DNA of 33,879 nt from an uncultured Actinomycetes bacterium (GTDB lineage Bacteria > Actinomycetota > Acidimicrobiia > Acidimicrobiales > RAAP-2). Every line of letters begins with the position of its first letter. Position 1 is the stretch's first letter. The notes beneath the pieces were generated by a model, which did no database searches, was not told where the DNA came from, and saw only the letters and a program-made list of their open reading frames with translations. The translations under genes were made by a program, and so were the position numbers. Of this stretch, positions 22,587 to 33,602 are shown in pieces. The DNA lies in NCBI GenBank assembly GCA_903900235.1, contig CAIUMH010000152.1:1-33879 (forward strand), written 5' to 3'.

Positions 22587-24737
22587 CTACTTGATCAGCG
22601 GGTCGCGCGGCAGACCGAGGATCCGCTCACCGATCTGATTCCGCTTGATCTCCGACGTCCCACCGGCGATGGACATCCCACGGTGCATGAGCACGAGCAC
22701 GTTGCTCAGCGCAGCGTCACCGTCCATGAACACCGACTGCGATGCGTAGATGTCGGTGAAGATCGCTGCGGCCTCATGGCCGATCTCCGACAGGACGAGC
22801 TTGGTCATCGCACCCTCGGGTCCCGGCTCTGCTCCAGCGACAGCACGGTTGGCCGCCCGAAGGTTGAGCAGGCCCATCGCCTGGTGCTCGGCGATGTAGC
22901 GGCCCAGTCGCGGCTCGCCGCCGTCGAGGTGGTGACCATGGGCGTCATAGGCCTCTACGAGAAAGGACCCCGGTACGGACAGCCCGCCATCACCAGCCCC
23001 GATGCTGACGCTCTCGTTGCCGAGCGTTGCCCGTGCCACCGTCCACCCGCCGTCGACCGGTCCGACCACGTCGTCGTCCGGGACGAAGACGTCCGTGAAG
23101 AAGACCTCATTGAAGTCCGAGGCACCGGAGGCCTGCTTGAGGGGTCGGACCTCGACACCCTCCGCATGCATGTCGATTGCCATCATCGTGATCCCGTCGT
23201 GCTTGGGGACGTCAGGATTCGTCCGGACGGTGGCGAACCCCATACCGGCCACATGTGCCCCTGAGGTCCAGACCTTCTGACCATTGACCAGCCAGCCGCC
23301 GTCGACACGCGTGGCCTTGGTCTGAACCCCCGCGGCATCGGAGCCGGCATTGGGCTCGGAGAACAGCTGGCACCAGATCACCTCCTGGTTGAGCGCAGGG
23401 AGCACCCAGCGAGCCTTCTGGTCCTCGGTGGCGAACTGGATCAGCGTGAGGATGTTCCATGCCGTGATGCCGTAGCTCGGCCGGACGATGCCCGCTGTAG
23501 CGAACTCCTGCTCGATCACCAGCTGCTCGATGGCTCCTGCGGAGCGGCCGAAGGGCACCGGCCAGTGCGGCATCACATAGCCCGTCTCGATCAATCGGGC
23601 ACGCTGCTGCTCAGCCGAGAGCCCCGCGATGCTCTGGGCGAAGGCCACGACTTCGGCCCGGATGGATTCCGCCTCCGGAGGGAGCTCGACGCTCTTGCCC
23701 CGCTTGACCCCGCGGCGGGTCAGGTCGGTGAGGTCGGCGGCAGCCCGATCGGCTCGCAGGAACGCCAGCAGCGTCGTCGCCCGTCGCATGTAGAGGTGGG
23801 CATCGTGCTCCCACGTGATCGCAATGCCTCCATGGACCTGCGTGTTCAGGTTCGCACACAGGTCGGCGGCAGGTGCCGCAAGGGTGGCGGCCACGGCTGC
23901 CGCATAGGAAAACACGTCACCGCCGGTCGATGCCGCCTTGGCGGCATCCCACACGGCAGAGGTGGCGAGCTCGGTCGCCACGGCCATGTTGGCGCAGTGG
24001 TGCTTCACCGCCTGATAGGTCCCGATGACTCGGCCGAACTGCAGGCGCTCCTTGGCATAGGCCGCCCCCATCTCGGTGCAGGCAGCTGCCACACCGACCG
24101 CCTCCGCGGACAGCAGCAGCCGCGAGAGGTCCATGAGAGCCTGGCGAGCGCCGCTCAGCACGGTTGCCGGAGCACCGTCGAGGGTGACCCGAGCCGAACG
24201 GCGAGAGGGATCGAGGTTCGGCGGAACCTCAATCGTGACCCCGGTGCCCGCCTCGACCACGAGCACATCGTCGCCCGCTCCGATCAGCAGGACCGTGGCA
24301 AGGCCACCGCCGAGAATGACACCAGCGTCACCCGTGGCCAGGCCATCGACCACCGTGACCGATGTGTCAAGCGCCACCGCTCCGATCAGCGACCCCTCGG
24401 CAAAGCCGGGGAGGAGGCGATCGGCCGCCTCTCCACCCACCGCCGACAGCACGGCACTGGCGATCACGGTAGGCACAAAGGGCCCGGGGGCGAGGGTCCG
24501 TCCCATCGCCTCGACCACGACGACAAGCTCTTCGAGGCCGAATCCCGATCCGCCCTGCTCCTCGGCGAGGTGGAGGCCGAGCCAGCCCATATGCGCCATC
24601 TCCGACCAGGTGCTCGAGAGCTCTTCGGTCGTCGCATCGAGCAGCGCCCGCGCCGGCTCGGTGCCACCACGAGCGGTCAGGAAGTTTGTTGCGGTCTCGG
24701 CCAGCGACAGGTGGTCTTCGGTGATGGCGATCGACAT
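22587..24737 (-). CDS. Two-module acyl-CoA dehydrogenase (FadE-type fusion)
   Basis: At 716 residues the protein is about twice the length of a normal acyl-CoA dehydrogenase. Residues 1-about 370 form a first ACAD module whose FAD/substrate motifs are worn. Residues about 375-716 form a second with clear signatures: WCQLFSEPNAGSDAA, WLVNGQKVWTSGAHVA and a C-terminal GGTSEIKRNQIGERILGLPRD. Fused or heteromeric ACADs of this sort in actinobacteria act on bulky acyl-CoAs such as steroid side chains, with one half catalytic and the other structural; that extension is inference. The ATG has GAGGAG before it. It is the first gene of the minus-strand group and is divergent from the crotonase. Confidence 0.85.
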   Translation of the reverse strand: MSIAITEDHLSLAETATNFLTARGGTEPARALLDATTEELSSTWSEMAHMGWLGLHLAEEQGGSGFGLEELVVVVEAMGRTLAPGPFVPTVIASAVLSAVGGEAADRLLPGFAEGSLIGAVALDTSVTVVDGLATGDAGVILGGGLATVLLIGAGDDVLVVEAGTGVTIEVPPNLDPSRRSARVTLDGAPATVLSGARQALMDLSRLLLSAEAVGVAAACTEMGAAYAKERLQFGRVIGTYQAVKHHCANMAVATELATSAVWDAAKAASTGGDVFSYAAAVAATLAAPAADLCANLNTQVHGGIAITWEHDAHLYMRRATTLLAFLRADRAAADLTDLTRRGVKRGKSVELPPEAESIRAEVVAFAQSIAGLSAEQQRARLIETGYVMPHWPVPFGRSAGAIEQLVIEQEFATAGIVRPSYGITAWNILTLIQFATEDQKARWVLPALNQEVIWCQLFSEPNAGSDAAGVQTKATRVDGGWLVNGQKVWTSGAHVAGMGFATVRTNPDVPKHDGITMMAIDMHAEGVEVRPLKQASGASDFNEVFFTDVFVPDDDVVGPVDGGWTVARATLGNESVSIGAGDGGLSVPGSFLVEAYDAHGHHLDGGEPRLGRYIAEHQAMGLLNLRAANRAVAGAEPGPEGAMTKLVLSEIGHEAAAIFTDIYASQSVFMDGDAALSNVLVLMHRGMSIAGGTSEIKRNQIGERILGLPRDPLIK

Positions 24738-26972: not shown

Positions 26973-28037
26973 GTGCGCTCCCCGAAAGACTTCTTCCGCC
27001 CCTTGGCCGTGGGCGCTCCCGAGCCTCTGCGAGAGATCCCGTTCCGACCGTCGCGGATGATCCACTTCTTCCCCTCGTCCAACCCGAAGATGGTGGCCAA
27101 GCTGCCGGACCTCGCTCCGAAGGTCGATGTGCTGCTCGCCAACCTCGAAGATGGGGTTCCCGCCACCGACAAGGAGGCCGCTCGGGCCGGCCTGGTCGAG
27201 GTCGGGCGGACGGTCGACTTCGGAACCACCCAGTTCTGGACGAGGGTCAACTCGCTCGACTCACCCTGGGGCCTCGATGACCTCACCACTGCCGTCACCG
27301 AGGTCGGCCACAAGCTTGACGTCATCATGATCCCCAAGGTGGAGGGGGCCGAGGACATCCACTACGTCGATCGGTTGGTCGCCCAGCTCGAGGCGAAGGC
27401 CGGCCTCGACCGACCCATCCTCCTGCACGCCATCCTCGAGACCGCTCGCGGCGTGGCCAACGTCGAGGAGATCTGCGCCGCATCCCCGCGGATGCAAGGC
27501 CTCTCACTCGGCCCAGCCGACCTCGCGGCCAACCGTCGCATGAAGACCACTCGTGTCGGTGGAGGCCACCCTGACTACCTCGTGCGCCAAGACCCCATCG
27601 ACGGAGATATCAACGGCCCACGGGCGATCTTCCAGCAGGACCTGTGGCACTACACGATTGCCCGCATGGTCGATGCCTGCCAGGCCAATGGAATCTTCGC
27701 CTTCTACGGCCCGTTCGGTGACATCGCCGACACCGTGGCCTGCGAAGACCAGTTCCGCAATGCCTACCTCCTCGGCTGCGTGGGTGCGTGGTCGCTTCAT
27801 CCAACCCAGATCGACATTGCTCGCCGGGTCTTCTCACCCGCCGTCGCCGACATCCGCCACGCCCGCCGCGTTATCGCCGCCATGGGCGATGGAACCGGAG
27901 CCGTCATGCTCGACGGAAAGATGGAGGACGACGCCTCCGTCAAGCAGTGTCGCGTCATGATCGAGCTCGCCGATGAGTTGGCGAGCCGTGATCCTGATCT
28001 GGCCGCGCTCTACTCGACCATCACCTTGGAGGACTGA
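26973..28037 (+). CDS. mcl: Malyl-CoA/(S)-citramalyl-CoA lyase, Chloroflexus Mcl-like
   Basis: The 354-residue HpcH/HpaI-family lyase resembles, from memory, the Chloroflexus malyl-CoA lyase of the 3-hydroxypropionate bicycle along its length: the [12 protein letters not shown] opening, VRVNxLxSPWxLDD-like text, [43 protein letters not shown] and [10 protein letters not shown]. Mg2+ ligands should be Glu156 (ILETARG) and Asp183 (GPADL); Arg91 (WTRVN) would contact the substrate. The enzyme reversibly cleaves malyl-CoA or methylmalyl-CoA to glyoxylate plus acetyl- or propionyl-CoA. The GTG start is backed by GGAGG at 26964-26968. It heads a three-gene operon with a CitE-like gene and a thioesterase. 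Confidence 0.87.
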
Positions 28038-28038
28038 C

Positions 28039-28917
28039 ATGACCGATGCGAACCTGCGACCCCGTAGAAGTGTGCTCTACATGCCCGCCGCCAATGAACG
28101 GGCCCTCGAAAAGGCAAAGGACATCGCCGCTGACGCCCTGATCTTCGACCTTGAAGACGCGGTCGCCCCCGACGCCAAGGCCGAGGCCCGCGAGCGAGCC
28201 TGCGCCATGGTTGCCGCCGGTGGCTATGGAAACCGCGAAATCACCATCAGAGCCAACGGCATCGGGACACCCTGGCACGACGATGATCTCGCAGCCATCT
28301 CCGCTGCCGGTCCCGACGGCGTGGTTGTGCCGAAGGTCAACTCGGTCGCCGACGTCGCCGCCATCGAGGCAGCACTCGAGCGCCATGGTGCGCCGGACCG
28401 GACCCGCATCTGGGCCATGCTCGAGACTCCCATCGCCATGCTTCACGCCGAGGAGATCTGCGCTGCCTCAGAGCGACTGAACGTCCTCGTGATGGGTACC
28501 AATGACCTGGCCAAGGAGCTCCACGCCCAGCGTGTGCCGAGCCGCCAGCCCCTGATGGCCGGCCTCTCCCTCAGCCTGCTCGCAGCGCGCGCTGCCGACA
28601 AGGTGATCCTTGATGGCGTCTTCAACGACATCAAGGATGAGGGTGGATTTCTCGCTGAGTGTCAGGTCGGCCGCCAGATGGGCTTCGATGGCAAGACGCT
28701 CATCCATCCGAGCCAGGTCGGGCCCTGCAACACGGCGTTCTCACCTGAGCCAGCCGAGATCGAGCTCGCAGAGCGCATCATCGCCGCCTTCGAAGAGGCA
28801 GAAGCCGAGGGTCGCGGCGTCGTCACGGTCGACGGTCGCATGATCGAGAACCTCCATGTCGACGAGGCTCGCCGGGTGCTCGCCATTCGCTCGGCCATCT
28901 CCGACGCCGGGGGCTGA
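28039..28917 (+). CDS. CitE-like CoA-ester lyase/thioesterase (HpcH/HpaI family)
   Basis: The 292-residue protein is a second, shorter member of the same superfamily. Motifs are SVLYMPAANERALEKA, FDLEDAV at 36-42, RANG at 71-74, MLETPIAML with Glu129 and VMGTNDLAKE with Asp156 as likely Mg2+ ligands, and KTLIHPSQVGPCN. Family members include citramalyl-CoA lyase, citrate lyase beta and malyl-CoA thioesterase (Mcl2). The start is placed at the ATG at 28039, one base after the previous stop with GGAGG at 28028-28032; the frame open from 27973 overlaps mcl. The shared operon suggests that both act on the same C4/C5 CoA esters. Confidence 0.85.
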   Translation: MTDANLRPRRSVLYMPAANERALEKAKDIAADALIFDLEDAVAPDAKAEARERACAMVAAGGYGNREITIRANGIGTPWHDDDLAAISAAGPDGVVVPKVNSVADVAAIEAALERHGAPDRTRIWAMLETPIAMLHAEEICAASERLNVLVMGTNDLAKELHAQRVPSRQPLMAGLSLSLLAARAADKVILDGVFNDIKDEGGFLAECQVGRQMGFDGKTLIHPSQVGPCNTAFSPEPAEIELAERIIAAFEEAEAEGRGVVTVDGRMIENLHVDEARRVLAIRSAISDAGG

Positions 28918-31161: not shown

Positions 31162-31368
31162 GAAGACTCGCCCTGCAGGACCCCTTGGACCGTTCCCGGT
31201 GCCGACGGAGCATGCTCATGTACGGCGATGCATCTTCGTGCGAGTCCTGATGGGCCTCAACCCGGTAGAATATGGTTTCACCCTTAGTGGGGACCCCCTT
31301 GTGGATAGCTGACCCAATTTCGTCAGGCTCCTTCGGTCGCCTCCTCTGAGCTCGTCTCAAGGAGAACC
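31162..31368. promoter_or_regulatory. Intergenic region and leader of the DUF1611 gene
   Basis: This region holds a TAGAAT hexamer at 31266-31271, a candidate -10 for the DUF1611 gene; transcription from about 31278 would give a leader of about 90 bases. Within it AGC-TGAC (31307-31313) can pair with GTCA-G-GCT (31322-31329), seven pairs with one bulge. A CAAGGAG ribosome binding site lies before the ATG at 31369. No known riboswitch or tRNA was recognised. Confidence 0.4.
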
Positions 31369-32508
31369 ATGTCACGCAACGCTGCGGAGAATTCTGTGCC
31401 CGACCGCACCCCCGCCACCGACTCCCGGCCGACAGCCGTCGTCTACTGCGAGGGCAACTTTGGTCGGCCTGATGGCAAGACGGCGAATGGTCTCGTCCGG
31501 TACTCAGAGCGCTTCCGGATTCTCTCGGTCATCGACAGTTTCGAAGCTGGCCACGACGCAGGCGAGCTCCTTGATGGCACGCCGAACGGAATTCCGGTGG
31601 TGGCCGATCTGGCCGCCGCCATCGAGCTCAACGGAGGAACTCCCACCGTCGTGATCTACGGCATGGCGCCGCTGAGCGGCCTGCTGTCGCTCGAGGAGCG
31701 CCGTGTGCTGCTCGACGCCATGGCCCAGGGGATCAGCGTGGTGAATGGGCTCCACGAGTTTCTCAACGAGGATCCCGAGTTCGCCGCCAGCGCGGTGATC
31801 CACCACGTCACGATCGAGGACGTCCGCCGACCGCGCGACAAGCGAGACCTCCAGATGTTCACTGGGCGGATCTTCGACGTCACCTGTCCTCGGATCGCCG
31901 TGCTCGGAACTGACGGAGCGGTGGGGAAACGGACCACCGCCACCATTGTCACCCAGGCGCTCCGCGATCGGGGCATCAATGCCGTGATGGTCAGCACCGG
32001 CCAGACCGGATTGATCCAGGGCGCCCGCTACGGCGTTGCGCTCGATGCCATCCCCTGTCAGTTCTGCTCGGGCGAGATGGAGGCCGTGGTCGTGAAGGCC
32101 TTCGAAGCAGAGCACCCGGACGTCATCATCATCGAGGGTCAGGGGGCACTCAGCCACCCGGCCTACCTCAGCTCGACATTCATCCTCCGCGGCGGTCGAC
32201 CCAATGGTGTGATCCTCCAACATGCACCGAGCCGTCGATTCCTCGGGGACTTCCCGGAAATCCGGGTGCCCGACCCGCTGAGCGAGATCAACCTGATCGA
32301 GACCTTCGCCGACACCAAGGTGATCGGCCTAACGATCAACCACGAGAATATGAGCGATGTCGAGGTAACCGCCGCCATCGAGCTCTACCAGCTCGAACTC
32401 GACATCCCCGCTACCGATGCGCTGACCCGACCAGTCGAATTGCTCGTCAACATGGTGCTGTCCGCCTTCCCCGAGCTCACCCCTTCAGCCATACCTGTCG
32501 CCACGTGA
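31369..32508 (+). CDS. DUF1611 family protein (DgcN-like, P-loop)
   Basis: The 379-residue protein has an N-terminal Rossmann-like domain (TAVVYCEGNFGRPDGKTANG near 22-41) and a C-terminal P-loop domain. The nucleotide loop is GTDGAVGKRTT at 180-190, the family form of Walker A. It is followed by VSTGQTGLI and VIIIEGQGALSHPAY, which are strongly family-like. The best-known DUF1611 protein is DgcN, a D-glutamate N-acetyltransferase that works with the epimerase DgcA. Here the family's usual Cys in GTDC is Gly183, and the partner is a PLP racemase instead of DgcA, so the substrate may differ. Its stop overlaps the next gene by four bases (GTGA). Confidence 0.8.
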   Translation: MSRNAAENSVPDRTPATDSRPTAVVYCEGNFGRPDGKTANGLVRYSERFRILSVIDSFEAGHDAGELLDGTPNGIPVVADLAAAIELNGGTPTVVIYGMAPLSGLLSLEERRVLLDAMAQGISVVNGLHEFLNEDPEFAASAVIHHVTIEDVRRPRDKRDLQMFTGRIFDVTCPRIAVLGTDGAVGKRTTATIVTQALRDRGINAVMVSTGQTGLIQGARYGVALDAIPCQFCSGEMEAVVVKAFEAEHPDVIIIEGQGALSHPAYLSSTFILRGGRPNGVILQHAPSRRFLGDFPEIRVPDPLSEINLIETFADTKVIGLTINHENMSDVEVTAAIELYQLELDIPATDALTRPVELLVNMVLSAFPELTPSAIPVAT

Positions 32509-33602
32509 GCCTGCCGAGGCTGGAGATCCGCCTCGACCTCATCCGGCACAACGCAGAGATCCTCGTCGGCCGGCTCGCCCAACGGGGGATTGAGGTCTGC
32601 GGAGTGACTAAGGCGACGCTTGGATCCGCCGAGGTAGCTCGCGAGCTCCTCGCCGCCGGCGTCACGTCGCTCGGCGAATCGCGCATCGACAACGTCGAGC
32701 ATCTTCGGCAACGAGGGATCGAAGCGGAGATCATGCTCATTCGGTCGCCTCCGATGAGCCAGGTTGACCGCGTGGTGGCCTCCACGGACGTCAGTCTGAA
32801 CACCGAGCTGGCGGTCATCGAACACCTCTCGGCATCCGCACGTCGTCAGCAGCGCAATCACGCAATCATCCTGATGGTCGAGCTCGGTGACCTCCGCGAA
32901 GGCATCATGCCCAGTGATCTGCTCGAGGTCGTCGAACAGGTCCTCGACCTCCCGGGCATCACCCTTCGGGGCATCGGAACCAACCTCGCCTGCCAGAGCG
33001 GCGTGATCCCCGACGCATCCAACATGGGTCAGCTCACAGATCTGACTGAGTCAGTCGAGGCGGCCTTCGGCCTCAAGCTGTCGGTCATCTCTGGGGGCAA
33101 TTCAGCCAACCTCGGCTGGGCGCTCTCCCCTGAGTCCTCCATCGGTCGCGTTTCACAACTGCGCCTCGGAGAGGCGATCCTTCTCGGGCGAAACCCCACG
33201 GACCGAACGGGGATCGACGGCCTCCACACCGACGCAATCGCACTTCTCGGCGAGGTCATCGAGAGCAAGGACAAGCCCATGGTGCCGGCGGGAACTCGCG
33301 GTCAATCGGCGTTCGGTGCAGCCAAGCAGACTCAGGGTGCTGATGGAACAGAAGAGAGGATCATCGTCGCCCTAGGTCGCCAAGACATCGACCCTGAGGG
33401 CATCGTCGCTCCCCTCCCCCTGACTTCCCTCGGCGCCAGCAGCGATCACCTCGTGCTCACCAGCATGGCCCCGAAACCGGCGGCCGTGGGATCGGTCATT
33501 CGCTTCACGCTTGACTACAGCGCTCTGCTTCGGGCGATGACCTCGCCCTTTGTCGCTCGACGGTTCCTTCAGGACAGTTCCACCGATCCGTTCATGCCGT
33601 GA
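32505..33602 (+). CDS. Alanine/ornithine racemase-family PLP enzyme
   Basis: The 365-residue protein has the alanine racemase N-terminal barrel. Lys36 in VCGVTKATLG is the PLP Schiff-base lysine. GESRIDNVEHLR, NTELAVIEHL and SGGNSANL follow the order seen in Clostridium ornithine racemase and YhfX-like proteins rather than biosynthetic Alr, and the C-terminal domain is short. The substrate is an amino acid whose identity is not fixed by the sequence. The GTG start overlaps the DUF1611 stop by four bases, which indicates coupled translation and a joint pathway, plausibly D-amino acid metabolism. Confidence 0.8.
   Translation: MSLPRLEIRLDLIRHNAEILVGRLAQRGIEVCGVTKATLGSAEVARELLAAGVTSLGESRIDNVEHLRQRGIEAEIMLIRSPPMSQVDRVVASTDVSLNTELAVIEHLSASARRQQRNHAIILMVELGDLREGIMPSDLLEVVEQVLDLPGITLRGIGTNLACQSGVIPDASNMGQLTDLTESVEAAFGLKLSVISGGNSANLGWALSPESSIGRVSQLRLGEAILLGRNPTDRTGIDGLHTDAIALLGEVIESKDKPMVPAGTRGQSAFGAAKQTQGADGTEERIIVALGRQDIDPEGIVAPLPLTSLGASSDHLVLTSMAPKPAAVGSVIRFTLDYSALLRAMTSPFVARRFLQDSSTDPFMP

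Follow-up and report, generated by a model that had tools for sequence, protein, structure and literature searches.

A DUF1611 protein paired with an ornithine racemase-family enzyme: a widespread two-gene module distinct from DgcN-DgcA

We describe two overlapping genes on contig CAIUMH010000152.1 of an uncultured acidimicrobial bacterium (assembly GCA_903900235.1), the first coding for a DUF1611 protein and the second for a pyridoxal 5'-phosphate (PLP) enzyme of the ornithine racemase (Orr) family. The window analysed is this entire contig of 33,879 bases, which belongs to a 2.4-Mb genome of 157 contigs that is 96.55% complete. A DUF1611 gene followed by an Orr-family racemase gene constitutes a widespread conserved two-gene module, and the DUF1611 protein of the window belongs to a racemase-paired clade that is distinct from the clade of DgcN. 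We give roughly even odds (about 0.5) to the reading that translation couples the two genes into one module, whose racemase would use a free basic amino acid and whose DUF1611 protein would N-acylate one enantiomer of that amino acid.

Structure and conservation of the gene pair

The DUF1611 gene runs from 31369 to 32508 on the forward strand, begins with ATG and encodes 379 amino acids; a ribosome-binding-like site, AAGGAG, was read by eye 5' of its start (31359..31364, +). Its product combines a Rossmann-like N-terminal domain (PF17396, residues 59-155) and a P-loop C-terminal domain (PF07755, residues 163-359), which pass their gathering thresholds of 22.6 and 25 bits with 80.3 and 218.2 bits, respectively. 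DgcN (NF041892) is the only NCBIfam model that it matches, at 150.7 bits against a cut-off of 480. The second gene (32505..33602, +) encodes a fold-type III PLP enzyme of 365 amino acids, and its GTG start lies across the TGA stop of the DUF1611 gene in a GTGA overlap of 4 nucleotides (32505..32508, +). Both open reading frames, and the four-base overlap between them, are thus as the first-pass annotation of this DNA had described them.

The PLP protein has PF01168 (Ala_racemase_N, 106.1 bits) as its sole Pfam match at an E-value threshold of 0.001. Its best NCBIfam model is ornithine racemase Orr (NF040742), with 334.2 bits against a cut-off of 480, and the alanine racemase model TIGR00492 gives 35.3 bits, below its cut-off of 168. 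The Orr cut-off is strict, because it is also missed by an Acetoanaerobium member (407.8 bits) and by the racemases of D-ornithine loci in two other genomes, G631 (394.7) and G623 (361.3). The source genome has a single DUF1611 gene and two Ala_racemase_N genes, of which the second is a normal Alr (317.8 bits).

The pairing is well conserved among the 80 best of at least 570 DUF1611 matches in a species-level genome collection, which are 61-71% identical to the window protein. A racemase gene lies just 3' and on the same strand in 68 of these 80 loci, two of them interrupted by a contig end; one other locus stops at a contig edge, and 11 have no adjacent racemase. The titles of these records name Actinobacteria, Alpha-, Gamma- and Deltaproteobacteria, Desulfuromonadales, Planctomycetota/Phycisphaerae, Verrucomicrobiales, Lentisphaeria, Acidobacteriota, Krumholzibacteriota, and Synechococcus. 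Of 83 pairs, counted without genomes found twice, 74 have a start codon that yields the exact 4-nucleotide overlap. The distances between DUF1611 proteins correlate with those between their racemases (r 0.86 over 74 pairs), a value far from the 0.23 that 1000 permutations reach at most.

In 249 evenly drawn Pseudomonadota genomes, two of which (the centre genome G229, and G239) were carriers known beforehand, DUF1611 occurred in 37, at 41 places. Six of these places are of the window type, all with a racemase beside them; the other 35 comprise 32 with an epimerase and three for which no partner was found. Seen from the other gene, eight of the drawn genomes hold an Orr-family gene, which in six cases adjoins a window-type DUF1611. 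Together with the nearest loci and the overlap starts, these counts rule out a chance pairing.

Among 100 genomes made up of the source genome and its relatives, PF07755 was matched in 12 and exceeded its cut-off in seven. Strong matches (E < 1e-60) were limited to the source genome and three relatives; the racemase is directly downstream in all three, with unlike surroundings in two of them. Eight of 100 Microbacteriaceae-type genomes (the family of G105) have a DUF1611 over the cut-off: besides G105 itself, two have the window type with a racemase, three the window type without one, and two an epimerase-partnered protein. In a survey of Actinomycetota racemases (60 genomes matched, 30 loci looked at), all six that are at least 50% identical to that of the window adjoin a DUF1611 gene, our own counted, and none of the 24 that are at most 45% identical has one within the available flanks. 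The same pair is also carried by Vibrio and roseobacter plasmids, with DUF1611 proteins 55-59% identical to that of the window, and in four plasmid loci NCBI labels the partner an alanine/ornithine racemase family PLP-dependent enzyme. In the open-access library searched, outside which most subscription papers fall, we found no publication on the DUF1611-racemase pairing and nothing on COG3367 or on N-acetyl-D-ornithine, the DUF1611 papers found there being unrelated.

Two DUF1611 clades and two types of partner

In the main study of DgcN, this protein is said to N-acetylate D-glutamate from acetyl-CoA. DgcA, an enolase-fold enzyme, reportedly epimerises the N-acetyl compound after this acetylation, a role that its NCBI name also gives. 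The window pair resembles that system (DgcN, NF041892 and structure 7xrj; DgcA, NF042940) in its two-domain DUF1611 fold, in a conserved core and in usually having the gene of a stereo-inverting enzyme downstream of it, but it falls in another clade, scores below the DgcN cut-off and has a PLP racemase instead of an enolase-fold epimerase as its partner. PMC10845958 links DgcN-DgcA to D-glutamate.

The two partner types separate on the DUF1611 phylogeny. In a 111-row tree, the racemase-partnered group has 54 rows (38 with a racemase, 15 with no partner found, one unknown, and none with an epimerase) and the DgcN group has 50 (45 with an enolase-fold epimerase and five with no partner found). 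These rows are a subsample of 154 distinct DUF1611 sequences, consisting of all non-racemase rows, 16 named racemase kinds and every third other racemase row; one short row was dropped, L060 was set by hand to racemase (34 residues before the contig end) and L086 to unknown. Two sequence sets, A3 and A4, combine the window sequence with 48 of the 62 and 43 of the 54 sequences listed for them. In a 44-row tree of hand-picked rows, the stems of the racemase-paired and DgcN clades both have support of 100/100, and forcing the window protein into the DgcN clade is rejected by the approximately unbiased (AU) test (p-AU 7.1e-6). The first-pass annotation had called for a phylogeny with partners mapped on it and had named a position inside the DgcN clade, together with a DgcA homologue elsewhere in the genome, as evidence against its proposal; the window protein lies outside. 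Two haloarchaeal rows, one of them with a dipeptide epimerase as partner, join the racemase clade at 100/97 in this unrooted analysis, with a long-branch warning from the program. Their grouping therefore makes a single partner swap a possible history.

The P-loop, GTDGAVGKRTT (31906..31938, +; residues 180-190), was correctly read in the first-pass annotation, but its suggestion that GTDG in place of GTDC may signal a different route did not survive comparison. The 154 distinct sequences include 81 racemase-paired proteins, which have C (48), G (32) or S (one) as their fourth P-loop residue, and 49 epimerase-paired ones, which have C (47) or M (two). Glycine at this position is seen only in the clade of the window, yet independently of the partner, and GTDG as a mark of a racemase partner is ruled out by the presence of both GTDG and GTDC among racemase-paired members. 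The residues GTD and GK are common to the window protein and DgcN. A better separator of the clades is the end of the motif, GKRTT being typical of the racemase-paired clade and GKMYT or GKKYT the most frequent forms in the DgcN clade. Over the whole protein, the two clades agree at 36 columns, with conservation of at least 95%, and another 19 are conserved but differ between them (90% or more in one clade, 85% or more in the other). Clade-specific positions, given as window clade/DgcN, include Q231/D, R274/H, H325/T, and D56/R, the last of which may be a charge swap.

A DgcA homologue elsewhere in the genome, the other part of the combination that would have spoken against the first-pass proposal, was not found in the source genome, where a gap is possible at its degree of completeness. 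Its sole MR_MLE gene scores 51.8-51.9 bits against the DgcA cut-off of 400, and the best model for this single enolase-family gene is menC/OSBS (137.9 bits). The partner, the AU test, the score against the DgcN model and the absence of a DgcA match together set the pair apart from DgcN-DgcA. The first-pass proposal is thus supported in part, and a different substrate is plausible, by way of the ornithine/arginine kin of the racemase.

Both systems can share a genome. A search for DgcA in 42 genomes with a racemase-type DUF1611 gave nine with a match that exceeds the cut-off, which G246 narrowly missed at 393 bits; a Sphingobium plasmid used as control was also matched. Twenty-four of those genomes were searched again for DUF1611, and ten had at least two strong places. 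In six (G224, G226, G228, G230, G246, and G247), one DUF1611 gene adjoins a DgcA gene and another belongs to a racemase pair. The Pseudomonadota draw adds G346, G362, and G429, each having one place with an epimerase and one with a racemase, which brings the genomes with both kinds of pair to nine. Because these nine hold both, plain redundancy of the two routes is unlikely. In two Synechococcus genomes and one Krumholzibacterium genome, another DUF1611 gene lies close to a weaker relative of DgcA.

Further DUF1611 relatives occur on a plasmid and in phages. A Vibrio nigripulchritudo plasmid typed as conjugative encodes one, 37% identical, with the degenerate P-loop GDDTTISRLST (L027:5914-7080), near which no racemase was found. 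A distant DUF1611 gene is present in 34 records of Erwinia and Dickeya phages; for Dickeya phage AD1, the gene numbering in PMC6143709 places a methyltransferase on one side of it and an asparagine synthase on the other.

The racemase, its kin and the proposed order of steps

AlphaFold2 models of the two proteins have mean predicted local distance difference test scores of 94.9 (racemase) and 89.7 (DUF1611). The racemase model shows the two-domain alanine racemase fold, with Alr as its best match (Z 30.0, root-mean-square deviation (rmsd) 3.1). Lys36, Arg131, Arg220, Cys163, Asp314, His315, and Tyr338 are kept in all 74 paired racemases compared; by analogy with Alr, Lys36 would be the PLP lysine, and Arg131 and Arg220 would have roles in the PLP site. 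The closest structures to the DUF1611 model are 2obn from Anabaena (Z 39.3), 2g0t, which is Thermotoga TM0796 (35.5), and 7xrj (30.0). Only the last has a title that names a function, N-acetyltransferase DgcN-25328; 2g0t is titled a putative nucleotide binding protein.

Clues to the substrate come from the kin of the racemase. In a 67-row tree, which samples one in three of the named paired loci and omits L111 and L112, all 37 DUF1611-paired racemases fall in one clade (Shimodaira-Hasegawa-like approximate likelihood ratio test (SH-aLRT) 99). Their nearest outgroup consists of three rows of one actinobacterial family (f85), and next out is the G631 row together with three racemases fused to arginase. 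In G631, the racemase gene is followed in series by Or-4, OraE (1317 bits) and OrtB (792 bits) of D-ornithine degradation; in G623, from family f85, Or-4 adjoins the racemase and OraE is about 4.6 kb off. The fusions to an arginase-family domain are found in Shinella (L219:6001-7785), Sinorhizobium (L218:5001-6785) and genome G370 (L222:1492-3315). Their racemase parts are related to that of the window (43-44% identical), but they have the arginase-family domain attached and no DUF1611 within the stretches examined. A D-amino acid dehydrogenase gene adjoins the Shinella and G370 fusions, and the Shinella locus also encodes a 5-guanidino-2-oxopentanoate decarboxylase. The conversion of L-arginine to D-arginine and on to 2-ketoarginine is established chemistry, and the gene content of the Shinella locus fits it; for the fusions themselves, an arginine racemase-ureohydrolase route is possible. 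In PMC6034422, a D-arginine catabolic pathway independent of L-arginine is described as uncharacterised.

Because the nearest unpaired racemases sit in D-ornithine loci or in arginase fusions, a basic amino acid of the ornithine/arginine class is our best guess for the substrate. A Photobacterium relative precedes a putative basic amino acid antiporter that scores below the cut-off of that model. Orr of D-ornithine degradation is the closest racemase family, with the PLP-site residues conserved and with kin beside OraE, OrtB and Or-4. The window racemase differs from it in its score (334 of 480 bits), its own clade and its DUF1611 partner, and also in genomic context: OraE was over its cut-off in none of the 42 genomes with a racemase-type DUF1611, our own included (a weaker match in G238 reached 119.8 bits), vs both of the two unpaired Orr genomes. 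The ornithine mutase is therefore not the sink, and we rejected a D-ornithine mutase route for the window-type genomes.

PLP racemases form a Schiff base that requires a free amino group, and an N-acyl product is no substrate for them. Since DgcA-type enzymes, by contrast, take the N-acyl compound, the racemase would act before acylation, and the order of steps must differ from that of DgcN-DgcA because the partner is a PLP racemase and not an enolase-fold epimerase. In the sequence of reactions that we propose, the substrate, a free amino acid of the ornithine/arginine class, is converted between its L and D forms by the PLP racemase, after which the DUF1611 protein N-acylates one enantiomer, probably by N-acetylation with acetyl-CoA as donor. 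The acylated enantiomer would most likely be the D form, as with DgcN. Acylation would pull the reversible racemisation one way, toward an N-acyl-D-amino acid, and the order would be reversed relative to DgcN-DgcA, with racemisation first and acylation second. The module may serve in catabolism, in detoxification or in making such a compound.

Weighing the proposal and its alternatives

Several observations weigh against this proposal. Nine of the 11 genomes whose nearest-type DUF1611 has no adjacent racemase lack any Orr-family match (E 0.001), seven of the nine being titled Microbacterium or Leifsonia, and the DUF1611 protein, hence the putative acylation step, can therefore stand alone. The unlinked racemases in the genomes of loci L044 and L046 are closer by score to the Ilyobacter Orr than to the window racemase, and may therefore not be the absent partner. 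In four genomes (G210, G229, G231, and G233), a full-score DgcA occurs with no DUF1611 other than the racemase type, so that DgcA there may use the racemase-paired DUF1611 protein or be a dipeptide epimerase. Tyr265 is the second catalytic base of Alr, and the position matched to it by eye, 292, is variable in the paired racemases (R 39, H 16, E 6, Q 5, and L 3 of 74). The branch that joins the paired racemases to the ornithine-locus racemases of f85 has an SH-aLRT of just 80, and no transporter or regulator that would name a substrate was found beside the pair in the window.

The four genomes with DgcA and only a racemase-type DUF1611 would also suit a module for D-glutamate, or for another acidic or neutral amino acid, in which the DUF1611 protein retains the specificity of DgcN and the PLP enzyme replaces the epimerase. 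This agrees with the core that the protein shares with DgcN, and the haloarchaeal grouping would allow the partner swap to have taken place on a D-glutamate background. Such a module is rather unlikely in our view, given the nine genomes with both kinds of pair, the ornithine and arginine enzymes among the kin of the racemase, and the four clade-specific positions that are conserved differently from DgcN. Instead of an acyltransferase, the DUF1611 clade may comprise an ATP-dependent ligase or carboxylase type of enzyme with a BioD/CobB-like P-loop, acting on a D-diamino acid. The structural similarity of its C-terminal domain extends to dethiobiotin synthetase, CTP synthase and cobyrinic acid diamide synthase (Z 13-14), and the two nearest structures lack a named function; however, Z values of this size are fold-level and common to many P-loop proteins, and the title of 7xrj, which shares the P-loop core, names an N-acetyltransferase. 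We consider this reading unlikely.

The chemistry of the PLP protein and the direction of the module may also be questioned. D-threonine aldolases match the racemase model nearly as well as Alr (Z 28.8, rmsd 2.5), as would be expected of a fold-type III D-amino acid lyase of the D-threonine aldolase or D-serine dehydratase type. A lyase is nonetheless very improbable, with ornithine racemase by far the best model, PF01168 alone returned by Pfam and the nearest kin in D-ornithine loci. A basic amino acid racemase would also permit the conversion of D-ornithine to L-ornithine, from which the DUF1611 protein would make N-acetyl-L-ornithine, an intermediate of arginine biosynthesis. In L046, an arginine deiminase gene immediately precedes the racemase-less DUF1611 member, the gene calls behind this neighbourhood including a crude home-made method. 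However, DgcN reportedly acts on D-glutamate, in agreement with PMC10845958, and no arginine-biosynthesis gene was seen beside the pair in the annotated loci, in which a minority of neighbours was scanned; we hold an L-directed module to be quite improbable.

The other neighbours of the pair are varied. An M81/MlrC-like gene lies near it, in either orientation, in nine of the 80 loci by similarity (L037:5253-6734 on the reverse strand, L069:8240-9727 and seven more); a single assembly contributes two of the nine, and Pfam confirmed the gene in two. PepE dipeptidase was present in two scanned loci, and M19, arginine deiminase and amidohydrolase genes in one each. The remaining scanned neighbours (YcaO, luciferase-like, methyltransferase, aldehyde dehydrogenase, and others) are mutually unrelated. 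The hint at peptide or amide turnover that this scanned minority of neighbours may give is suggestive at most. The idea of a cyanophycinase was dropped, as both S51 genes match PepE above its cut-off. A secreted-looking Cys-rich protein with several W-x-C-x-R-G-Y...C repeats is encoded near the pair in 14 loci (L025:6962-7798, L049:5049-5891, L083:4767-5645, and 11 others; L025 is the same stretch as L199). In one of these proteins, Pfam finds EGF_MSP1_1 at 28.1 bits (cut-off 27), and the other two scanned were below the cut-off. Farther off in the window are two tandem open reading frames for HpcH/HpaI-type, citE/RipC-like lyases (26973-28917), which overlap if read from their first start codons, and a chain of 716 amino acids on the reverse strand (22590-24737) with N-terminal, middle and C-terminal acyl-CoA dehydrogenase domains, the last in two stretches.

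Tentatively, and with slightly less than even confidence, we regard the pair as a second DUF1611 pathway, a widespread and self-contained cassette distinct from DgcN-DgcA and found beside it in some genomes, which would racemise a basic amino acid and lock its D form as an N-acyl compound. Homology-based counts of dgcN in surveys could merge the two DUF1611 clades. If the proposal is true, the DUF1611 family would consist of D-amino acid acyltransferases whose partners define two or more pathway designs, an epimerase after acylation or a racemase before it, and the pair would represent a candidate D-ornithine/D-arginine route in marine and soil bacteria.

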